Source: Halobacteriovoraceae bacterium (GTDB lineage Bacteria > Bdellovibrionota > Bacteriovoracia > Bacteriovoracales > Bacteriovoracaceae). Taken from it: 64,000 bases of DNA. Below are positions 1 through 11,349 of this stretch, in pieces (within the stretch, counting starts at the first letter, position 1; every line of letters begins with the position of its first letter). The stretch spans positions 9,674-73,673 of the forward strand of contig PASN01000004.1 in assembly GCA_002711995.1 (NCBI GenBank), read 5' to 3'. Under the pieces are notes generated by a model. It did not search any database and was not told the DNA's origin. It worked only from the letters and a program-made list of their open reading frames with translations. Both the position numbers and the translations under genes were made by a program.

Positions 1-50
1 TGAGCGGGTGATAAAGAAGCACCCATTAAAAATCTTTAACATTTGGGGGC

Positions 51-84
51 TAAACGAAAAGTAATAATCTTTTTTTTTCGTTTA
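51..84. terminator. Inverted repeat, terminator-like
   Basis: Perfect 10-bp arms (51-60 and 75-84) flank a loop that contains a run of nine T. The hairpin could end a transcript entering from the left of the window. The first 50 bases hold no recognisable gene end. Confidence 0.35.
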
Positions 85-125
85 CCTTCTTTCTGCACCA
101 TAAAAACTTATAACCTCTAAACATT

Positions 126-141
126 CCAGTAATGATACTGG
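126..141. promoter_or_regulatory. Small inverted repeat upstream of xis-like gene
   Basis: CCAGTA-ATGA-TACTGG is a perfect 6-bp inverted repeat, 22 bp before the start of the excisionase-like HTH gene and just ahead of its AGGAGG ribosome-binding site. It may be an operator for that DNA-binding protein. This is inference from position and symmetry only. Confidence 0.3.
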
Positions 142-163
142 CAAAGCTTAGGAGGATATAAGC

Positions 164-376
164 ATGATTAATTTAACCACCAAATTATTAACAATTGATG
201 AAGCAGCGGAACTACTTTCTGTTAAAGTTTCTCGACTGAGAACCGCTGTTTTTCGACGCGAGATCCCATTTGTAAAGATTGGACGCCTTGTCCGATTTAA
301 AGAAGAGTCTCTTCTAAAATGGATCGATGAGATGACCAAAAAGACTCTTGCTCAAGAGGAGGACTCATGGTTTTAA
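164..376 (+). CDS. Excisionase-family HTH DNA-binding protein
   Basis: A 70-residue basic protein that looks like a single MerR/excisionase-type helix-turn-helix (HTH_17 family). It has the pattern LTIDEAAELLSV near the N-terminus, the turn RLRTAVFRREIPFVKIG and the wing segment VRFKEESLLKWID. Such proteins bind att-site DNA to steer integrase toward excision, or control the early promoter of an element. A strong AGGAGG site lies 11 bp before the ATG. The stop overlaps the start of the next gene (ATG at 367) by 10 bp, so the two are probably co-transcribed. The integrase encoded 1.5 kb downstream makes an excision or directionality role plausible; a plain repressor is the alternative. Confidence 0.7.
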   Translation: MINLTTKLLTIDEAAELLSVKVSRLRTAVFRREIPFVKIGRLVRFKEESLLKWIDEMTKKTLAQEEDSWF

Positions 377-691
377 CTAAGAACTTTTCCCAAATTCCGA
401 ATGAGGTCTTTCAGGCCAAGACTTTAAGTTTAAAGGCTATAGGGCTCTACTCTTACCTAAGGTTTAAGTCTTACTGCGGAAACGCTCAGATGGCGTTTCC
501 AAGTCAAAAAAAAGATCATGAAAGACCTAAACATAGGAAGCGATAACACCCTTCGAAATGTAATTCGGGAACTTGAAAACAATGGTTTTTTGAATGTTAA
601 AAGAGGTTCGATTTACACAGGAAATAGTCGCTATAAGCTACTAGTTCCCAAAATCTACGACCATGACAACACAGGAAGTGCGGCGATATAG
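367..691 (+). pseudogene. HTH initiator-like protein, frameshifted at A8 run
   Basis: The frame opens at ATG 367 and reads NFSQIPNEVFQAKTLSLKAI..YSYL, a pattern seen in HTH_36/DnaD-type helix-turn-helix proteins near replication modules. It stops at 546 after about 59 codons. Just after the eight-A run at 506-513 the protein continues in the +1 frame (IMKDLNIGSDNTLRNVIREL and onward) to TAG 689-691. The span is 325 bp, one base more than 108 codons, which fits one extra A. An ATG at 518 could start the second part as a separate 57-residue protein. Slippage on the A run could also make full-length product, but a mutation or sequencing error is the simpler reading. Confidence 0.65.
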
Positions 692-698
692 CCGCACT
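677..698 (+). terminator. Hairpin over the stop of the HTH gene
   Basis: Perfect 8-bp GC-rich arms (677-684 and 691-698) with a 6-nt loop overlap the TAG of the frameshifted gene. No U-tract follows, only A/T-rich sequence, so it may act as a weak terminator or mRNA stabiliser before the ATPase gene. Confidence 0.35.
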
Positions 699-741
699 AT
701 TCAAGCAAATAATAATATAAAAATAAAAATAGGATTAAAAA

Positions 742-1695
742 ATGAAAAAGTTAAAAGATTGCATGCCCATAATAAATGAGATGATACAAAATTTACCTCC
801 AGAGCGAAGGATGGAGAATATAAAAAAAGCGGTAAAAGTTGAAACAAAAGCCAAGAAACCTGGCCTATGGTTTTCAAACTTTGAAGACGAACCAGTAAAG
901 GAACCTTTAAAGACAAGCTATAAGTTCTTAAAAGAAGTAAGTGGCTTATCAGAAGGAAGCTTTAATGTTGTAGCAGGTAGAACAGGTAAGGGAAAAACCG
1001 ATTTATTAATTAGTTTGGCTGCTGATAATCTTCTAAATGGTTACTCTATAGGCTTCTGCTTATCTGAAGGTAAATTATCCGAATATAGCTCCCAGTTGAA
1101 GTACGTTTTACTTGAACGTACTAAATGCAGAAAGACTGTTGAGAAACTTCTGGATCAAGTTATGGGCTTTACAGCTTCAAGTATTAACGTCAATTCTTCG
1201 TACGATTACTCATATTGGGTGAACTCCTTTTATAACAGTGCCAGGTTCCATAAGCTTAACATTATCTACCTCGACAATCTAAGTACCATTAGCTTTACCA
1301 ACAGCACTCCTGAAGTGGAGTCGGGATTCACAGAAGCATTGGTTCGAGGGGCAAGTGATAATAATGTCTGTGTAATAGCTGCAATTCATCCAATTAAATC
1401 TCTAAATCCAAATGTTGAAATAACCAAGGATCAGTTTCGCGGGAATGCAAGTCACGTGAATATGGCAACAAATGTTTTCGCTCTAAACAACTTCGACAAC
1501 ATCAACTCAGGATTAAGAATTATTAAGACCTTAAAAAGCAGATATTTCGGGGAAAAAGAAGGGAAATGTTTTGAGCTAAAATTTAAAAAGCTAAAATTTC
1601 GTGGGTTTTACAAGAGTGATTCCCCTATTAATCAAATTCAAGCTAGAAGATACTTCGCAGACAATTATCGTCGAAATCCAAGTGGCCGAAACTAG
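742..1695 (+). CDS. RecA/DnaB-like P-loop ATPase
   Basis: A 317-residue protein with Walker A GRTGKGKT at residues 79-86 and a Walker B-like strand IIYLDNL at 174-180, in the layout of DnaB C-terminal/RepA (AAA_25, KaiC-like) ATPases. A later AAIHP strand fits a RecA-type sensor segment. The first 70 residues show no known domain. Such single-domain hexameric ATPases serve as replicative helicases or helicase loaders on plasmids, IMEs and phage satellites. Here it follows an HTH initiator-like gene, so a minimal replication module is the likely role. No primase or zinc-finger motif is visible. Substrate and helicase activity are inferred, not shown. Confidence 0.7.
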   Translation: MKKLKDCMPIINEMIQNLPPERRMENIKKAVKVETKAKKPGLWFSNFEDEPVKEPLKTSYKFLKEVSGLSEGSFNVVAGRTGKGKTDLLISLAADNLLNGYSIGFCLSEGKLSEYSSQLKYVLLERTKCRKTVEKLLDQVMGFTASSINVNSSYDYSYWVNSFYNSARFHKLNIIYLDNLSTISFTNSTPEVESGFTEALVRGASDNNVCVIAAIHPIKSLNPNVEITKDQFRGNASHVNMATNVFALNNFDNINSGLRIIKTLKSRYFGEKEGKCFELKFKKLKFRGFYKSDSPINQIQARRYFADNYRRNPSGRN

Positions 1696-1725
1696 GCCTA
1701 TAAGAGATAAACCATGAACCAAATA

Positions 1726-1795
1726 CTAGTATTGTCTTCATATTTTGGTATAAACCTAGAGTTCTTTGACAACCAAATAATGATGACAATACTAG
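1726..1795. repeat. Long inverted repeat before the integrase
   Basis: Sixteen-bp arms with one mismatch (1726-1741 and 1780-1795) are separated by 38 bp. They lie between the ATPase stop and the integrase start. The short word ACTAGGCC also occurs as a direct repeat at 1691-1698 and 1791-1798. Possible roles are integrase arm-type sites, an operator for the excisionase-like protein, or an origin. Confidence 0.45.
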
Positions 1796-1828
1796 GCCAT
1801 TTGCCCTTTTGCCAAAAAGGAGCATTTT

Positions 1829-2992
1829 ATGGCTAAAAAAGACGAGAATTTTCACGAAAAATCTTCTAATTTTTCTGGTACTAACTGCGAAAAAATCCCA
1901 AAAAGTGAAACTAAGTACCAAAAAGGCACGAAAAGTAGCACTAATCGTGAAAGTATTCGCAAAAAGAAAAAGTACCGCGTGGATGTACGAATGCCAGACG
2001 GTAGGCGTATCACTAAATCTTTTCATAGAAAGTATGATGCTGAGAAATTCAGAGCAGAACTTCGAATTGAAAAAGAACAAGTGAAAGATACCGGTATCTA
2101 CATCCAAAATGATATTAAATTTAAAGACTTTGTTGAAATATGGTTTAACACCGAAGTGAAAAACCGCAAGGCAAAGAAAACTCAACGCTGTTATGAGAGT
2201 GATCTAAAGAACTACCTTCTCCCCTTGCTTGGACAAATTCAGTTAAGACATCTGAGCTTTCACCATGCGAGGCAATTAGAAAACTTTGTTTTAAAGGAAG
2301 GAAAATCTGCGAGAACGGTGAATAAGGTATTGATGGAATTTAAAACAATACTCAATGATGCTGTAAAGCTTGGCTACCTATTAAGAAGTCCCATTCGAGG
2401 TTATCCAGAGTTAAAGGAAGAGCCAAGGCACATGAACTTCTGGAATAAGGAAGAAATCAAAATTTTTCTTAATGCCAATAAAGATGATCACCTTATAGAT
2501 CTTTATGTTGTAGCTCTTAACACAGGACTTCGATTGGGTGAAATCTGTGGCCTATGTTGGGATAGAGTGGACTTCAATGGTGGTGTTCTTAATATAAATC
2601 GCTCTCTAACAAGAGACGGTCTCAGAAACACGACAAAGACCCATAAAGGTCGTTACGTTCCAATGAATGCCATTGTAAGGGATACACTTGAAAAACGCTT
2701 TAAATCGAAAAATTCGAAGTATGTTTTCACGACTCAAGCTGGTAAACCACTTCCCTACGACCATATTACTCAAAGAGACTTTAAAAAAGCTCAATTGAAA
2801 GCTGGGCTTGATAAAAAAATTCGCTTTCACGATCTCCGTCACACTTTCGCCAGTCACTTTATGATGAATGGTGGAAATATCTATACCCTTCAGAAATTGC
2901 TCGGACATTCCGATATTAAAACCACAATGATTTATGCTCATTTGGACAATCAGTTTTTGAAGGAAGCGACGGAGATTATAAACTTCTCCTGA
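1829..2992 (+). CDS. int: Tyrosine recombinase (integrase)
   Basis: A 387-residue phage-type integrase. The C-terminal catalytic domain carries R235 in GLRLGEIC, K273, the HDLRHTF box (H334, R337), H360 in LLGH and the nucleophile Y369 in MIYAHL. Residues about 97-180 match the SAM-like core-binding domain. The N-terminal 95 residues contain the arm-binding AP2-like segment (YRVDVRMPDGRRITKSF), preceded by an unusual lysine-rich stretch of about 45 residues. The ATG follows AAAAAGGAG. It catalyses site-specific integration and excision; the 70-bp ssrA 3'-end repeats at 4830 and 5528 are the obvious att candidates. A strong terminator follows at 3030. Confidence 0.93.
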   Translation: MAKKDENFHEKSSNFSGTNCEKIPKSETKYQKGTKSSTNRESIRKKKKYRVDVRMPDGRRITKSFHRKYDAEKFRAELRIEKEQVKDTGIYIQNDIKFKDFVEIWFNTEVKNRKAKKTQRCYESDLKNYLLPLLGQIQLRHLSFHHARQLENFVLKEGKSARTVNKVLMEFKTILNDAVKLGYLLRSPIRGYPELKEEPRHMNFWNKEEIKIFLNANKDDHLIDLYVVALNTGLRLGEICGLCWDRVDFNGGVLNINRSLTRDGLRNTTKTHKGRYVPMNAIVRDTLEKRFKSKNSKYVFTTQAGKPLPYDHITQRDFKKAQLKAGLDKKIRFHDLRHTFASHFMMNGGNIYTLQKLLGHSDIKTTMIYAHLDNQFLKEATEIINFS

Positions 2993-3029
2993 AAAGCGGA
3001 GATAGCCTCTTATAAAAAGCAAACCTCTG

Positions 3030-3067
3030 AATGGGAGAGGATTGACTCTCTCCCATTCCTATTTTTT
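3030..3067 (+). terminator. Rho-independent terminator after int
   Basis: Ten-bp perfect stem (3030-3039 with 3048-3057), 8-nt loop, then CCTATTTTTT. It separates the integrase from the cargo genes, whose first ATG (3068) lies directly after the T run. Confidence 0.85.
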
Positions 3068-3922
3068 ATGGAATTTTTAATTTATATACAGTTACTAGCT
3101 TTCAATTTCGTGGTTATAGATTTGATGATGAGGATTATAGTACTCATTATCGCCTTTATTGTTCTTTTGGTAATTAACAGTTTCATTGCGAGTGTTTTAG
3201 AATTTTGTTTCGTAAAAAAAGATAAATTCCACAAATTGGACTATGAAGATTTCGATATAGAAGAATTTAAAGAATATTTAGACCAGAACCCAATGTATTT
3301 GAGACAAGATACCAACTGGTTTACTAAGCGTTGTAACCCGATCTTCGCAAAGTGGCCATTTCTCAACAACACCAACGAATTAAATATGAAGAACTTCACA
3401 AAATGTTTTGTGATTATATTTAATATAACTTTTCTATATTTTGTTTTAAATACTTTTACATCTGATATTTCGTCTGCTTACGAGGCAACGCTAGAAAGTC
3501 TGAACAAGACATGGTTTTATATAGTTGGTGCATTCATTGCTATGTTTTGGCATCGCGACGCAGTATTTCAAAGAAAATGGAAGCACTGTCATGAAATTCT
3601 ACTGGAACTAAATAAATGCTATCTCAACAGTTACCTTTGCAGTGAAAATGACCTTTTAGATGACGAAGACAAGGACTCCAACATAGCAAAGTATGAAAAC
3701 ACACTTATTAACAATTTCTTGCTAGACACTCTACACTTAGACCTTTGGGCACATAAATCTTACTTCAGAGCTTTCAATAATTTTTTTATAGAATTGATTG
3801 AAAAAGACACGAAGTTTGAGGCAATAGAAATTGAAAAAATTATGTATAAAATTTCAAAAAGGGAAATGTCACCAACGGACATGGAAAAGATAATCAGATT
3901 CAATGAGCGACCTAAATCTTAA
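3068..3922 (+). CDS. Island cargo membrane protein, unknown function
   Basis: No family is recognised. The 284-residue product has hydrophobic segments at roughly residues 5-25 and 22-48 and a second hydrophobic pair near 117-137 and 147-165, which suggests three or four membrane spans. A charged, probably cytosolic C-terminal part follows, rich in Asp, Glu, Lys, Cys and His. The start is uncertain: ATG 3068 sits directly on the terminator T run without a good ribosome-binding site, and ATGs at 3123/3126 would keep the second helix. Composition is AT-rich relative to the core genome, as for transferred DNA. It is followed 23 bp later by another membrane-anchored gene. The two lie between int and att, the usual place for accessory genes such as defence modules. 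That role is only inference. Confidence 0.6.
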   Translation: MEFLIYIQLLAFNFVVIDLMMRIIVLIIAFIVLLVINSFIASVLEFCFVKKDKFHKLDYEDFDIEEFKEYLDQNPMYLRQDTNWFTKRCNPIFAKWPFLNNTNELNMKNFTKCFVIIFNITFLYFVLNTFTSDISSAYEATLESLNKTWFYIVGAFIAMFWHRDAVFQRKWKHCHEILLELNKCYLNSYLCSENDLLDDEDKDSNIAKYENTLINNFLLDTLHLDLWAHKSYFRAFNNFFIELIEKDTKFEAIEIEKIMYKISKREMSPTDMEKIIRFNERPKS

Positions 3923-3945
3923 AGCAGAAATCAGGATCAAAAAAA

Positions 3946-4752
3946 ATGGGGAAAACTAAAGCTAAGAATAGAAATAAAAGAAAAAAAAGAGTAAAAAAAC
4001 CTGAGAAATCATTCAATAAATTAAAAACTTCGCTAAAATGGCTTTCAACTCTTGTTGTCTCGTTAACGTTTGGTTTCTTTTACAATAACATCCTCGATTT
4101 GTTATATAACCGTAATAAGACATGCAATGCATTTAGGGATGAAGTATCAAGGTTGAGTTCGTTGGTCGCAAAACTTAACGAAAGTACAGAGTATAAATAC
4201 TCAAATATATTGCCCCTTTCAAAATCGATAGAAACTTTATTTTACGATGGTCGAATTTCAGAATCTCTATTTAGTGGATGTAGAAAAGCTAAAGATATGT
4301 TGTTCTTAAAGTCAGGAGGTTCACCTATTGCCACTAATTTATTTCCATTTGACGGAATGGTATATACAGAAATCAATCTTAGAAACCCAAGAGCTGAGGT
4401 GAATTACAACCCAATTCTCAAAGATGGAAATTACTCAAGAAACCACAAGAATAAATCAGAATGGGTCTTATTTGAGCCATGGTGGGAAAGCTATATCTAT
4501 TACTCTCCAAAGTCTCAAAAAGGGATATCAAGAAAGCAACTTGTAGTCCTCATATCATCATACTCTGACAAGAATGATGTAAATAATTACACGCAAACTG
4601 ACTTAGCGGACGTTAAGGACTTTATGAGAGGTGAACTAACCGTACGAGGCGTAAAGCAAAAAGACTTTGTAAATCGTAAATCCCACTATGCTTCACTTCA
4701 TAATATTGGATTAGAAATCATTAAGAGTTATGGTGAATTCAATAAAAAATAA
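3946..4752 (+). CDS. Island cargo protein with one N-terminal TM helix
   Basis: A 268-residue protein not recognised as any family. It begins with a very basic stretch (residues 1-30, mostly Lys/Arg/Asn), then one transmembrane helix near 33-52 (WLSTLVVSLTFGFFYNNIL). The rest is a soluble domain with a Trp-rich patch (FEPWWESYIYY). By the positive-inside rule the basic tail is cytoplasmic and the domain outside. It has no signal-peptidase site. It lies 23 bp after the other cargo gene and a hairpin terminator follows at 4786, so the pair is probably one transcription unit. A two-component envelope-located accessory or defence system is possible; nothing in the sequence proves it. Confidence 0.6.
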   Translation: MGKTKAKNRNKRKKRVKKPEKSFNKLKTSLKWLSTLVVSLTFGFFYNNILDLLYNRNKTCNAFRDEVSRLSSLVAKLNESTEYKYSNILPLSKSIETLFYDGRISESLFSGCRKAKDMLFLKSGGSPIATNLFPFDGMVYTEINLRNPRAEVNYNPILKDGNYSRNHKNKSEWVLFEPWWESYIYYSPKSQKGISRKQLVVLISSYSDKNDVNNYTQTDLADVKDFMRGELTVRGVKQKDFVNRKSHYASLHNIGLEIIKSYGEFNKK

Positions 4753-4785
4753 AATGATTGCCACAACCTAGCCACACAAACAACA

Positions 4786-4810
4786 AAAGGACTTGAGAAG
4801 TCCTTTAATT
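4786..4810. terminator. Hairpin terminator between cargo and att copy
   Basis: Nine-bp perfect stem (4786-4794 with 4798-4806) and 3-nt loop. Read on the minus strand it ends in TTTTGTTGTTT, so it could be the terminator that once served a tmRNA ending in the 4830 copy. On the plus strand it ends the cargo transcript. Confidence 0.65.
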
Positions 4811-4829
4811 ACGGGGCGTTACAAGTCGG

Positions 4830-4899
4830 TGGTGGAGGTGGTGGGAATCGAACCCACGTCCAAGAGTACGTCTGAGAGAGAGCACTACGTGTGTAGTCG
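4830..4899 (-). repeat. att-type copy of the tmRNA 3' end (copy 1)
   Basis: Seventy bases match the 3' end of the ssrA gene at 5528-5597 in 66 positions, including the encoded CCA, acceptor strand and T-arm. The four differences form two base pairs in the T-stem (T-A and G-C here, C-G and C-G in copy 2), so both copies still fold. The copy lacks the rest of tmRNA and is not itself a gene. It is best read as the attachment-site half left by integration into ssrA. Confidence 0.88.
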
Positions 4900-5181
4900 T
4901 TAGGAAGCTTCTTCTACACCTTTTTCGGATATCTTAATTAGCTTATTTGTATAGAGGTCATATATTGGAAAGGTCAGGTCAAAGTCTCCCCAATCCAGGT
5001 CTCCATCAATAACTTCAAAACTTTTAAAAAGTTCAAGGTTTAAATACTTTCTGATCTCTGAATGCTTGGAAGCGTTAAAAAATGGAAAGAAGTCCACAAT
5101 CTGTACTTTGCCGTCATTAAACTCCAATTCAAGCTTGTAGTCAGAAAGATACTTGGCACTTTTTATACTAATGTTATCCAT
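4900..5181 (-). CDS. DUF2442 family protein
   Basis: A 93-residue protein with the DUF2442 pattern: an N-terminal strand with ELEFNDGKVQIVDF, then KYLNLELFKSFEV, and a GDLDWGDFDLTFPIYDLY stretch where the family has its Trp-Asp-rich segment. DUF2442 genes are often paired with DUF4160 and are suspected, not proven, to form toxin-antitoxin-like pairs. The ATG overlaps the TAA of the DUF4160 gene by one base, indicating translational coupling. The stop codon starts at the first base after the 70-bp att repeat (4899/4900), so the repeat boundary coincides exactly with the gene end. Function is unknown. Confidence 0.8.
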   Translation of the reverse strand: MDNISIKSAKYLSDYKLELEFNDGKVQIVDFFPFFNASKHSEIRKYLNLELFKSFEVIDGDLDWGDFDLTFPIYDLYTNKLIKISEKGVEEAS

Positions 5182-5483
5182 TAAAGCTTCCCCTGAATTT
5201 TTTTAGCTACTATTTTTTTATGATACACAAAGTAATTAACCCATTGCTGGACGATCTCATCAGATAGTTTTCCCACCAGCTCTTCAAAGTCTTTTAATTG
5301 TTTAGATGGAAGGGCTCGCTTACCTTTCACAGAAGAAGTTTGAATATCTACTACTCTACCATCCTCTATAATAATCTCTATTTTAGATTCATGCCCTTGA
5401 TATCTAGCATGTACGTGAACAGGCTCATGCTCATTTGAGTAAAAGAATATGACAAGGCCTAAATATTCATAGAGCTTTGGCAT
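5181..5483 (-). CDS. DUF4160 family protein
   Basis: A 100-residue protein with the DUF4160 signature: the strand GLVIFFYSNEHEPVHVHARYQGHESKI (read in parts: NEHEPVHVHA is the hallmark) and a C-terminal helix LKDFEELVGKLSDEIVQQW. The family is usually encoded with DUF2442, as here, and is suspected to be one half of a toxin-antitoxin-like module. The gene starts 44 bp downstream of the mature tmRNA 3' end on the same strand. AAGGA lies 10 bp before the ATG. With no clear promoter in those 44 bp, readthrough from ssrA may express the pair. Confidence 0.8.
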   Translation of the reverse strand: MPKLYEYLGLVIFFYSNEHEPVHVHARYQGHESKIEIIIEDGRVVDIQTSSVKGKRALPSKQLKDFEELVGKLSDEIVQQWVNYFVYHKKIVAKKIQGKL

Positions 5484-5511
5484 TTTTTGCTAGTCCTTAT
5501 TTTTAGGGGGC

Positions 5512-5533
5512 CCACCAGAGTTTGATCTGGTGG
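5512..5533 (-). terminator. Hairpin that includes the tmRNA CCA end
   Basis: Eight-bp perfect arms (5512-5519 with 5526-5533) and a 6-nt loop. The upstream arm on the RNA covers the tmRNA 3' terminal CCACCA plus GA. It is followed by GCCCCC and AAAAATA rather than a U-tract, so it may be a 3'-processing structure more than a terminator. Confidence 0.45.
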
Positions 5534-5597
5534 AGGTGGCCGGAATCGAACCGGCGTCCAAGAGTACGTCTGAGAGAGAGCACTACGTGTGTAGTCG
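5528..5597 (-). repeat. att-type repeat inside ssrA (copy 2)
   Basis: This is the functional 3' end of ssrA and the partner of the 4830-4899 repeat. On the RNA the T-arm reads CCGG-TTCGATT-CCGG. Copy 1 differs only by compensatory changes in this stem. Confidence 0.88.
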
Positions 5598-5772
5598 CAT
5601 TAGAGCAAGCGACGGCTTTGAAAGTTTCGTGCCACTTACAAACCTCGGTGAAAGTTTCAACTGCGGTCCCGACTAGCAGCGAGGGCTTAGTTTTCCGACC
5701 TCCCCTCAAGAGGTCTTTACCTGCTTTTTGTTATCGGTGCAGGCCCCTCAGCAAGCGCAATAATTATTTAAA

Positions 5773-5805
5773 TTATGCAGCCATTGCGAATTCTTGTTCG
5801 TTGCC
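5773..5805 (-). other. tmRNA proteolysis-tag reading frame
   Basis: Resume codon GGC followed by AAC GAA CAA GAA TTC GCA ATG GCT GCA TAA gives GNEQEFAMAA. The hydrophobic Ala-Ala end matches the ClpXP degron type. The resume codon choice (Gly) is inferred from alignment with other tags; a preceding codon cannot be fully excluded. Confidence 0.8.
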
Positions 5806-5918
5806 GAATAAGATGTAATCGGATTTTTAACGAGGCCGTCCGATCAACCCCGACACGCGCTCAATTCGTCTGCAACCCCTGTCGAAACCAGTGCACCCCC
5901 CGAATTGTAAGCTTATCT

Positions 5919-6046: not shown

Positions 6047-6544
6047 ATGAAAAAACGAAATCTATTAGCAGCAGCACTACTAATTACCTCTATTGGAGTA
6101 ACTTCATGCGCTAGCGATGAAGAAAAAAGAGAAAAAGAACAAAGAATGGAGGAAACAGTAGAGGCTGAGCAAGAAAGAATGGAGCAAGAGTCTGACGAGT
6201 TTGCAAGCGACATGGAAGATGAAGTAATGCAGGCAGAAGAAAATATTGAAGCTGAAGCTCAAGAAATGCAAGAAGACATGTCTGACAAGCCATGGGCAGA
6301 CCAAATGATTAGTCTAGATAAAGCAAAAGAAGTTCAAGAAGCTCTTAAAAACAACGGGTTTGAGATTGGAGCGGTTGATGGCCTTATTGGTCCAAACACC
6401 AAAGAAGGCCTTAGAAGCTTCCAAGAGCAGCAAGAAAATCTTACTGCTTCTGGAGAGCTAAACCAAGAAACTATTGATGCTCTTGGACTGGATTTTGATC
6501 TAGTACAAGCGCAACAGGAGCCAAAGTCTGAAATGTCTGAATAA
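6047..6544 (+). CDS. Peptidoglycan-binding-domain lipoprotein
   Basis: A 165-residue lipoprotein. The signal peptide ends in the lipobox VTSC (Cys at about residue 21). An acidic, Glu/Met/Gln-rich helical linker (about 22-85) is likely coiled-coil. A single PG_binding_1 domain follows (about 95-150: KAKEVQEALKNNGF, GAVDGLIGPNTKEGLRSFQ, SGELNQETIDALG). The domain binds peptidoglycan non-covalently and there is no catalytic domain, so the protein probably tethers the outer membrane to the wall. AAAGGAG precedes the ATG. It is the shortest of three related genes in the window (6047, 6755, 10684), all with sigma-54-like promoters. A strong terminator follows at 6574. Confidence 0.85.
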   Translation: MKKRNLLAAALLITSIGVTSCASDEEKREKEQRMEETVEAEQERMEQESDEFASDMEDEVMQAEENIEAEAQEMQEDMSDKPWADQMISLDKAKEVQEALKNNGFEIGAVDGLIGPNTKEGLRSFQEQQENLTASGELNQETIDALGLDFDLVQAQQEPKSEMSE

Positions 6545-6754: not shown

Positions 6755-7681
6755 ATGAAACATAAAAAGACAGCTATAGCAGTCGCAGTGGCAGGACTTA
6801 TGGGACTCTCCCCATACGCAATCGCTGAAGGCTGGGGCGAAAAATCAAAACAGAAAATGCAAGAAGCTGGAGAGAGCGTTGAAAGAGGCGCTGAAAAAAC
6901 GACTGAAAAAGTTAAAGGCTTTTTTGGGTCTGATGAAAAACAAGAGCAAACTTCCATCTCTGCGGACAGTTTAAGTAAAGATCAAATCTCTCAAGTGCAA
7001 AAAGCGCTTAATGAGAAAGGCTTTCATTCTGCAAATGTAGACGGAGAAATGGGAGAAGAGACCAGCAAGGCCTTAAGAAACTTCCAAGAGAATCAAGAAA
7101 TCACAGCTTCTGGAGAGCTCAACCAAGAAACTCTAGACGCTCTAGGCGTGGACATTAACGTTAAGCAAGCTCAGGAAGAGTCAGAGTCAGCTCCAGTGGA
7201 AGAGCAACAAGACCATTCAGTGGAAAAACAAGAGCAAACTGACCACTCAGGTCATTCACACTCGCCAGAACAGCAAGAAGATTCTGGTTCTGCCATTCCA
7301 CAAGAGCAGCAAGAGGACTCCACAATGGTGCCACAGCAGCAACAGGAAGAGTCTAGTTCTGTTCAAGAGCCTCAACAACAAGAGGAATCAAGCTCGATGC
7401 TACCACAGGAGCAGCAAGATTCCGCTTCGGTAGGATCCTCTCCTCTTTCTTCAGACCAAGTTACTGAGTTGCAAAAGAGTCTAAACGAAAAAGGCTATGA
7501 TGCAGGAAACGTTGACGGCATCATTGGGCCTGAAACCAGAGGAGCGATTGAGAGCTTTCAACAAGAGAAAGGGATCACAGCTTCCGGAGAGCTAAATCAA
7601 GAAACTATCGACGCCTTAGGAATAGACGTTGATTTAAAGCAAGCTCAGGAAGAGTCAGGATCTCAAATGTTCTCAGAATAA
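6755..7681 (+). CDS. Secreted protein with two peptidoglycan-binding domains
   Basis: A 308-residue exported protein. The signal peptide is cleaved after AIA (about residue 24). A short amphipathic helix with SVERGAEKTTEKVKGFFG follows. PG_binding_1 domains lie near 68-130 and 232-295, each with VDG(E/I)(M/I)G...(S/R)..LRNFQ/IESFQ and the ending ASGELNQETLDALG. The 100-residue linker between them is made of Gln/Glu/Ser runs (QQEQQEDS-like). It probably spans and binds the cell wall; no hydrolase domain is present. AGGAGG precedes the ATG. A sigma-54-like promoter lies at 6689 and a hairpin follows the stop. The two domains resemble the single domain of the 6047 gene closely, suggesting recent duplication. 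Confidence 0.85.
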   Translation: MKHKKTAIAVAVAGLMGLSPYAIAEGWGEKSKQKMQEAGESVERGAEKTTEKVKGFFGSDEKQEQTSISADSLSKDQISQVQKALNEKGFHSANVDGEMGEETSKALRNFQENQEITASGELNQETLDALGVDINVKQAQEESESAPVEEQQDHSVEKQEQTDHSGHSHSPEQQEDSGSAIPQEQQEDSTMVPQQQQEESSSVQEPQQQEESSSMLPQEQQDSASVGSSPLSSDQVTELQKSLNEKGYDAGNVDGIIGPETRGAIESFQQEKGITASGELNQETIDALGIDVDLKQAQEESGSQMFSE

Positions 7682-9438: not shown

Positions 9439-10473
9439 TCAAAAACTATGGCCAATAATTTGCTTAGACAGACCTTCATTAATATTAAAAATGGTTTCGT
9501 TAATTCCCCTAAGAGGTTTCATAAGTTCTTCAATAAATATCTGGATCACTCCCTCCACTTCTGGGTTGGTTTGCAAGTATTCATGCTTTAACAAGGCATA
9601 GGATCTATCTGTGAGCTCGCTCAATGCGCGGGCAAGAGTGCCATCTCTTATAAACTGCTCTTTGATGATCAGGACTTCTCCCCGTAAAATATTTTCACGG
9701 TTTCTAAAGAGAAGTTTTTTGATGGCCTCAAAGTTATTTTGATTGTTTTCCAAATGCTTCACAATCAAAAAAGAAACCTTTCCCTCTTTGATGTCATTTC
9801 CCTGCATGTCTCTTTGCTTGTCCCCGTAAAGATCTATAATGTCATCCTGCATTTGCATGAGAAGGCCTAGCTTGTAGAACACATCCTCTAGCTCCACACA
9901 CTCCTCTTCAGCTTTATTGGCAATGATCCCCACTCCTCTGGCAAGGTGTGAGTAAAGAGAGGCGGTCTTCATTCCAGCGCACTCGAGATAGCGATTAGAG
10001 ATTCCCTTGCAGGATTCAAGCTCGCTAAGTTTAAATTCTCTACACTGCCCATCCATAACTTCAGAGGCAAGCTTGTTAAACAAGCTCATAAGCATGTGCT
10101 TTTTTTCTAGATCTAGCTCTGAGTCCAATATGCACTCTGTTGCGTTGATCATGAGAAAGTCCCCTGCGTTTATGGCCATGTTTGAAGAATATCTCTTCCA
10201 CAAACTTGGACGTGACCTTCTTAGAATATCTCCGTCTTGGATGTCATCATGAATAAGGGTTCCATTGTGAAACATCTCAAGTCCTGCCGCCCAGCCAACA
10301 GTGGACAATGCGTCAGTACTCAGCGCTTGCGCCAATAAACCTATGGCCTTCGGCCGGTTAAGTTTTCCCCACGTTTCAAAGTGGTAATCAATCATTTCTT
10401 TTAATTCGCCATGGGCGTTTTTTTCAACTACAGCATTAATTAGACGCTTGGTCTCTTCTAGGTACAACTCCAT
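9439..10473 (-). CDS. crtE: Polyprenyl (geranylgeranyl) diphosphate synthase
   Basis: A 344-residue trans-prenyltransferase. The first Asp-rich motif is DDIQD at residues 76-80 (LIHDDIQDGDILRRSRPS) and the second is DDIID at 210-214. Both bind Mg-diphosphate. It builds C15/C20 prenyl diphosphates from IPP and an allylic starter. Context (phytoene-synthase-like and cyclase genes 43 bp downstream) favours GGPP for carotenoids. An octaprenyl quinone-chain synthase is the alternative. GGAGAG lies just before the ATG. The gene diverges from the peptidoglycan-binding gene at 10684 across a 210-bp gap. Confidence 0.85.
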   Translation of the reverse strand: MELYLEETKRLINAVVEKNAHGELKEMIDYHFETWGKLNRPKAIGLLAQALSTDALSTVGWAAGLEMFHNGTLIHDDIQDGDILRRSRPSLWKRYSSNMAINAGDFLMINATECILDSELDLEKKHMLMSLFNKLASEVMDGQCREFKLSELESCKGISNRYLECAGMKTASLYSHLARGVGIIANKAEEECVELEDVFYKLGLLMQMQDDIIDLYGDKQRDMQGNDIKEGKVSFLIVKHLENNQNNFEAIKKLLFRNRENILRGEVLIIKEQFIRDGTLARALSELTDRSYALLKHEYLQTNPEVEGVIQIFIEELMKPLRGINETIFNINEGLSKQIIGHSF

Positions 10474-10683: not shown

Positions 10684-11349
10684 ATGACTTCGCTTATAAA
10701 TTTGATCATCACACTAGGTTTATTCAGCACTCCTATTGCGCTTGGCAACGGACCGAGTGTGGGACTTGATGAAAAACTCAATAAGGTCCAGCCCCCTCAG
10801 CAACAGGTTGAAGAGGAAGAACCAACATACATTCCACCAAACACTGTGTTTGAAGTGGCAAAAGTTCCAGACCGCACCACCGTTTTAAAGCTTCAGCAAA
10901 AGCTTGAAGGCATGGGCATCTATAAGGGACCTCTAGACGGAAAATGGACAACAAGAACACAAAGAGCTTTAAGAAAATATCAAATGAGAGAAGGGATAAC
11001 CGCGACTGGAAAGCTGAGTGAAGAAACTCTGGCCGCACTGAACATGAAAGTTCAGGATGAGGAAAACCAAATTCAAGCGCAGCAAGATTCAGGGAGCGAT
11101 TCACAAAACCTAACTGATACCTCTTCGCAAACCGAGAATTTTGACGCTTACAACAAGGAGCTCGTCAAAAAGGTTCAATCCAAGCTTAGTCAACTTGGGT
11201 GGGAGCTTAAGGAAGACGGGATTCTAGGACAAAGGACACAAGGTGTTCTTAAAGAGTTTCAAGAAAAGTCAGCTTTAAAAGTCACTGGCAGCATTAATTC
11301 AGAAACGCTGAAGGCCTTAAATATTGAGGAACAAGAGTTTGCTGAATAA
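10684..11349 (+). CDS. Secreted protein with two peptidoglycan-binding domains
   Basis: A 221-residue exported protein. The signal peptide ends near residue 20-22 (TPIALG). A Pro/Gln/Glu linker follows, then PG_binding_1 domains at about 65-120 (LQQKLEGMGIYKGPLDGKW, QRALRKYQ) and 158-215 (VQSKLSQLGWELKEDGILG, VLKEFQ, INSETLKALN). It resembles the proteins at 6047 and 6755 but is more diverged. No hydrolase domain is present. Likely role: cell-wall binding in the periplasm. A sigma-54-like promoter lies upstream and a strong terminator lies downstream, so it is monocistronic. Confidence 0.85.
   Translation: MTSLINLIITLGLFSTPIALGNGPSVGLDEKLNKVQPPQQQVEEEEPTYIPPNTVFEVAKVPDRTTVLKLQQKLEGMGIYKGPLDGKWTTRTQRALRKYQMREGITATGKLSEETLAALNMKVQDEENQIQAQQDSGSDSQNLTDTSSQTENFDAYNKELVKKVQSKLSQLGWELKEDGILGQRTQGVLKEFQEKSALKVTGSINSETLKALNIEEQEFAE

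Follow-up and report, generated by a model that had tools for sequence, protein, structure and literature searches.

A 698-bp toxin–antitoxin-type unit behind ssrA in a Halobacteriovoraceae bacterium and the likely replacement of its tmRNA 3′ end

The ssrA gene of a Halobacteriovoraceae bacterium is followed by a second copy of its own 3′ end, and the two copies carry different T-stems that are both fully paired. The product of ssrA, tmRNA, is the ribosome-rescue RNA, and the Bacteriovoracaceae are relatives of predatory bacteria. The stretch of 64,000 nucleotides that was analysed as a whole, called the window, corresponds to positions 9674–73673 of contig C1 in a 3.7-Mb assembly. The unit of 698 bp between the two copies was named E1, which appears to be the youngest member of a tandem array comprising E1, E2, E3 and further elements on another contig. 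We consider it likely that the GTGGG/CCCAC T-stem of the downstream copy belonged to the earlier end of this tmRNA and that E1 brought the GCCGG/CCGGC T-stem of the present gene, which would amount to a replacement of the tmRNA 3′ end.

Both ARAGORN and Rfam (RF00023, 133 bits) detected a single tmRNA in the window, at 5528–5900 on the minus strand. It encodes the tag peptide GNEQEFAMAA and has the CCA encoded at its 3′ end, so that position 5528 is the CCA end. The repeat search showed that the functional 70-nt 3′ end (5528–5597, minus strand; T-stem GCCGG/CCGGC, T-arm 5539–5555) is present again, displaced, at 4830–4899 on the same strand (T-stem GTGGG/CCCAC, T-arm 4841–4857), with 94% identity between the copies. 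They differ at 5540, 5541, 5553 and 5554 (4842, 4843, 4855 and 4856 in the downstream copy) and are the same at the other 66 positions. The four differences make up pairs 2 and 3 of the 5-bp T-stem, each pair being altered on both sides, with C-G and C-G in the functional gene and T-A and G-C in the downstream copy. The original prediction of two 70-bp ssrA 3′-end repeats whose four differences form two T-stem pairs was thus confirmed by the repeat search and the pairing. When random sets of four substitutions were scored over the two hairpins of the 70-nt segment, two compensated pairs were obtained in only 12 of 2,000,000 trials, and therefore both T-stems must have been shaped in working tmRNAs, because a displaced fragment free of selection would not gain compensated pairs. 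No decay was seen in the displaced copy, and a third full copy of the 70-nt end was not found in the genome. The derivation of a T-stem from a tRNA by tRNA-to-ssrA gene conversion was rejected, as GGTTCGATTCC is restricted to the two ssrA copies genome-wide. A terminator-like hairpin was predicted at 4786–4806 (minus strand), just past the displaced copy, and is possibly the terminator that ssrA used before the 698-bp unit came; the argument is one of position and not of score, since one hairpin was predicted against a shuffle mean of 1.3. Genes for peptidoglycan-binding-like repeat proteins were also seen near ssrA, at 6047–6544, 6755–7681 and 10684–11349, of which the first was compared with Pfam; the first two share a 104-nt family of DNA repeats.

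Between the copies (4900–5527) there are two small genes only, both on the minus strand and in the same orientation as ssrA. The first (5181–5483) encodes a DhiT-like toxin of 100 aa with a DUF4160 domain (Pfam PF13711, 2.4e-16; NCBIfam DhiT, 3.9e-9), and the second (4900–5181), which overlaps it by 1 nt, encodes a DhiA-like antitoxin of 93 aa with a DUF2442 domain (Pfam PF10387, 3.8e-6; NCBIfam DhiA, 1.2e-5). The NCBIfam matches fall below the curated equivalog cut-offs (37 bits against 100 for DhiT and 25.8 bits against 200 for DhiA), and the pair is therefore described as a superfamily relative and not as a confirmed DhiTA. DhiT homologues were missing in the nearest relatives and occurred elsewhere in other genomes of the family, which argues that the toxin–antitoxin pair was acquired. 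None of the family homologues had dhiTA adjoining ssrA, and an ARAGORN scan of 60 of the 80 dhiT loci collected from genome contigs showed no tmRNA next to dhiT. The DhiT-like gene begins 45 nt past the tmRNA CCA, and the stop codon of the DhiA-like gene directly adjoins the downstream ssrA copy. Because no terminator was predicted between the CCA and the DhiT-like gene, the nearest one lying just past the downstream ssrA copy, the toxin–antitoxin genes probably belong to the ssrA transcription unit, and the predicted pair would be expected to punish the loss of E1.

No integrase was found inside E1 when ORFs and Pfam matches were inspected over 4900–5527, the nearest one lying outside the unit, and no arm-type sites were recognised in it. 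For want of an integrase, the interval was rejected as a prophage or full island, and E1 alone was not classed as a tDNA (ssrA) integrative island, although the locus has a regenerated target gene and a displaced 3′ fragment in the same orientation, as such islands do. The earlier idea that an integrating element or island carried the second copy did not hold for the inserted unit, which has 698 bp and is not self-mobile; the integrase at 1829–2992 belongs to E2. That the whole arrangement is an assembly artefact or a mixture of strains is extremely improbable: isolated N bases do occur in the assembly, one of them in the att fragment at C1:5136, but the changes are perfectly paired, unique sequence flanks both copies, and the two DhiTA-type genes are intact.

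Behind the displaced copy lies E2, which occupies positions 1–4829 of the window and continues to an att fragment, with the sequence CCCACNACCTCCACCA, at C1:5136 outside it. On the plus strand, E2 encodes a tyrosine integrase of 387 aa (1829–2992; Pfam PF00589, 2.8e-35), a DnaB/KaiC-like ATPase (742–1695; Pfam DnaB_C, 2.2e-4, below the cut-off) that is kept beside the integrase in related elements, a small HTH_17 protein resembling an excisionase (164–376; Pfam PF12728, 2.8e-12), and two cargo proteins of 284 and 268 aa without recognised domains (3068–4752). Integrases 53–74% identical to that of E2 keep these gene neighbours in other genera, and several are located behind ssrA. The CCCACNACCTCCACCA fragment itself (L003:5136–5146) has a single N, and other isolated N bases were seen in the contig as X residues. 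E3 follows E2, and contig C1 ends inside it. The E3 integrase (349 aa) was found to be 97% identical in G013 and 79% identical in G016, two other genera in which the E3 end sequence and integrase stand directly behind ssrA. In E3-type elements (L050, L053, L064, L070 and others), paired palindromes of the GGACTACnCnGnGTAGT type were noted upstream of the HTH gene; they resemble the ACTACACACGTAGT hairpin of ssrA itself and are possibly operator or recombinase sites. Two more att fragments (C7:390049 and C7:383331), together with cargo related by homology to an ssrA island of G011, stand at the end of contig C7. This segment (383331–391506, L202) probably holds what remains of the array and joins the left end of C1. 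With att sites at 4830, C1:5136, C7:383331 and C7:390049 and integrases of the ssrA type, the locus has the features of a tandem ssrA island array, and it totals more than 23 kb.

The relative age of the two ssrA 3′ ends depends on the point of exchange. An exchange inside the T-loop was rejected, as the gene before insertion would then have been GCCGG/CCCAC with two mismatched pairs, and the exchange therefore took place to one side of the T-stem. An exchange upstream of the T-stem would make the downstream copy the older one, and an exchange in the acceptor stem would make the functional end native. The far ends of E2-type elements bear on this choice. In five relatives, they match the T-stem 3′ strand of the host's own ssrA (CCCGC in G004, CTCGC in G098, and CCCAC in G114, G116 and G121). 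Both E2-type far ends of the window genome (C1:5136 and C7:383331) read CCCAC, which matches the downstream copy and not the functional gene, and thus GTGGG/CCCAC was probably the tmRNA end before E1; this argument draws on five elements, three of them with the commonest T-stem, which counts against replacement. In addition, the T-stem 5′ strand of the copy at 4830 lies outside the 16–17 nt att core of E2 and was therefore part of E2's target. Replacement is also favoured by the consideration that 59 additional nt of ssrA on the left would serve no purpose for an element.

We regard it as unlikely that the functional 3′ end is native, with E1 having recombined at the acceptor stem and carried in the 70-nt GTGGG copy at its own left end, and E2 having integrated later behind that copy and not behind ssrA. 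Mapped ssrA elements of the family exchange in the acceptor stem as a rule, and pair 3 = C-G of the functional copy is common mainly to its nearest ssrA relatives, which have GTCGG (G002, G074, G078, G079, G080 and G019), so that this pair fits a native end as well and weighs against replacement. However, such a course leaves the element with 59 needless nt and gives no explanation for their identity to the host's variable region; the second E2-type far end, on C7, is likewise CCCAC, and the tmRNAs of G016 and G081, which are neighbouring genera, have GTGGG/CCCAC as well.

In the preferred course of events, a 698-bp DhiTA-type unit would have entered an ssrA gene that was already backed by the tandem array, with the exchange point upstream of the T-stem and within the 42 nt common to both copies. 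The tmRNA would have received its present T-arm (GCCGG/CCGGC), acceptor strand and CCA from E1, and the old 3′ end (GTGGG/CCCAC) would have moved 698 bp downstream, still adjoining E2 and the terminator. The agent may have been homologous recombination with a close relative's DNA or, alternatively, an ssrA integrase that acted in trans. Against replacement stand the lack of an integrase in E1 and the exchange of most family elements in the acceptor stem or T-stem 3′ strand and not upstream. Furthermore, the donor must match the 42 upstream nt exactly, and no such genome was present among those compared; neither a 3′ end like that of the window genome nor an unoccupied version of the site was found among the relatives compared, and the ssrA variable region of the window genome had no match in viral contigs. 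Since these 42 nt are identical and pair 3 = C-G recurs chiefly in the closest relatives, the donor of the GCCGG/CCGGC end was probably a close relative. The original prediction that one copy came from a different ssrA lineage and that a foreign, equivalent 3′ end replaced that of the tmRNA was therefore right in part: both T-stems come from working tmRNAs, and the functional end is the likely newcomer given the CCCAC at E2-type far ends, but a different lineage was overstated and the donor need not be distant.

Across the family, six T-stem types were found among 73 Bacteriovoracaceae ssrA genes, and all 365 of 365 T-stem pairs are Watson–Crick, without a single G-U intermediate. On an ssrA tree of 70 genes, built with the last 30 nt left out, the T-stem type changes at least 22 times. 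GTGGG/CCCAC is the type of 35 of the 73 genes, and GCCGG/CCGGC occurs in no other of the 73; the window genome (G000) is the one family genome with two T-stem types side by side. The 42 nt before the T-stem, the same in both copies, belong to a fast-changing part of ssrA. Among the 73 genomes, none of the 27 genome pairs with three or fewer differences in the upstream 43 nt differed in two T-stem pairs, and because of this the upstream part and the T-arm of the window genome seem, from these comparisons, to have different histories. A single T-stem pair differed despite an identical upstream part in 2 of 6 genome pairs, which counts against replacement.

The same data bear on the alternative that the insertion merely produced a duplicate of the host's own 3′ end, after which the functional copy altered two T-stem pairs by compensatory evolution, which we rate as quite unlikely. 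It gains from the many changes of type on the ssrA tree and from the single-pair changes seen with an unaltered upstream segment. Yet all four changes at the window locus lie in two pairs, with none in the other 66 positions, and include one C-G/G-C transversion pair; two pair changes were not seen in any of the 27 close genome pairs, nor was a G-U intermediate in the 365 pairs of 73 genes. The turnover of T-stem types in general could reflect ordinary compensatory evolution with strong selection against G-U or, alternatively, block exchange, and the family pattern is suggestive of block exchange and not proof of it.

Most mapped ssrA elements of the family exchange in the acceptor stem or the T-stem 3′ strand, with cores of 11–19 nt. 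Far fragments in relatives share with ssrA CACCTCCACCA and a few bases (11–15 nt), and other far fragments, mostly of the E2 type, include the T-stem 3′ strand and share 17–19 nt. Similar or identical element ends were found beside different T-stems in four genome pairs (G078/G081, G089/G096, G011/G097 and G018/G059), and therefore elements normally leave the T-stem alone; the notion that they generally carry it was rejected, and a T-stem swap does not generally follow from the targeting of tmRNA. Many proximal element ends have CACCTCCACCA running into a palindrome with TGGTGG(N)GCCCC (window 5505–5535, L050, L053, L135 and L136) and others run into a terminator; the 3′ trailer of the tmRNA appears to be supplied by the elements. 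Second ssrA 3′ ends at contig ends in G074 and G141 look like assembly-graph overlaps and were left out of the duplications. The contigs concerned (L140/L141 in G074 and L162/L163 in G141) overlap in the ssrA 3′ end and differ in the downstream sequence, as if more than one arrangement were present in the sample.

Exceptions with long repeats are E1 (70 nt), G015 (147 nt, bounding a 3.9-kb unit without an integrase that has a large restriction-modification-like gene, named by eye) and G141 (27 nt). The length of the E1 repeat, far beyond att cores of 11–19 nt, is a point for a course with no site-specific recombinase, in which homologous recombination with DNA of a related strain, received by transformation or transduction, moved the ssrA 3′ end together with dhiTA and an illegitimate join was made at the dhiA stop. 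The join exactly at that stop and the missing integrase agree with it. The 147-nt repeat of G015 indicates, on the other hand, that long-repeat units recur here, and site-specific insertion fits slightly better; we hold the recombination course to be improbable. It alters only the agent and not the replacement of the T-arm.

Short units without an integrase were also searched for behind other ssrA genes of the family. Downstream of about 90 ssrA 3′ ends (591 kb), the ssrA strand had 22 occurrences of CACCTCCACCA and the opposite strand one, against a chance expectation of 0.14 per strand. Several of the intervals so bounded lack an integrase and hold one or two genes, mostly co-oriented with ssrA. 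These units measure 0.17–3.9 kb and were found, for example, in G024 (L060), G113 (L184 and L182), G141 (L185), G009 (L046), G010 (L047) and G015 (L149). The 911-bp unit of G024 has a small overlapping gene pair that is toxin–antitoxin-like by layout only and has no Pfam match, the 661-bp unit of G141 encodes an ORF6N protein, and that of G009 a redoxin. E1 may belong to this wider habit of short units, though with a longer repeat. A broader and rather doubtful proposal is that the ssrA 3′ end in Bacteriovoracaceae serves as a cassette platform, to which small integrase-less units are added serially by ssrA integrases in trans, some of them swapping the tmRNA T-arm as a block. If true, such units would hold one or two genes, toxin–antitoxin pairs included, and the platform would account for the recurrence of six fully paired T-stem types over the ssrA tree without G-U intermediates.

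Islands in tmRNA genes are common, and the exchange is usually silent, both ends being alike or the displaced end having decayed. Here both ends are intact with compensated pairs, so that the exchange of a structural domain in a key RNA becomes visible and can be ordered against other elements. The site of E1 is a concrete test of the horizontal block exchange of tmRNA T-arms, and the unit represents a class of short inserts, free of an integrase, which pipelines for finding islands drop; the Islander pipeline rejects candidates of less than 2 kb or without an integrase (PMC4383910). No precedent for compensatory changes at ssrA att sites was found in the open-access literature.

The gene pair of E1 corresponds to dhiTA of Dickeya dadantii, a type II toxin–antitoxin pair shown to act (PMC8198452), in having a DUF4160 toxin gene followed by an overlapping DUF2442 antitoxin gene in the same order, whereas the E1 pair is below the NCBIfam curated cut-offs, lies directly behind ssrA and is known from sequence. 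The tmRNA-gene islands of Islander (PMC4383910) resemble E1 in that the insert regenerates the target gene, the far end is recognised by a displaced, co-oriented 3′ fragment and tandem arrays are formed; E1 differs in having no integrase, in its size of less than 2 kb, in an exchange seemingly upstream of the T-stem, and in displaced and regenerated ends that differ by compensated pairs. In Dehalococcoides, tandem islands likewise stand behind ssrA with short direct repeats as bounds, and 15 islands without an integration module were proposed to be cis-mobilisable (PMC3146451); these islands have serine recombinases, a 20-bp repeat and insertion in the T-loop, in contrast to the tyrosine integrases and one 70-nt repeat of the window array. 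The E. coli element CP4-57 and the Shewanella element CP4So (PMC10107115, PMC5148205) supply the tmRNA 3′ end as E1 would, and function depends on the end that is present. Their excision leaves a one-base deletion and inactivates the tmRNA, whereas the displaced end at E1 is fully paired and the loss of E1 should leave a well-formed tmRNA. Tandem ssrA islands are thus known, and the arrangement of E1 is an unusual variant of them.
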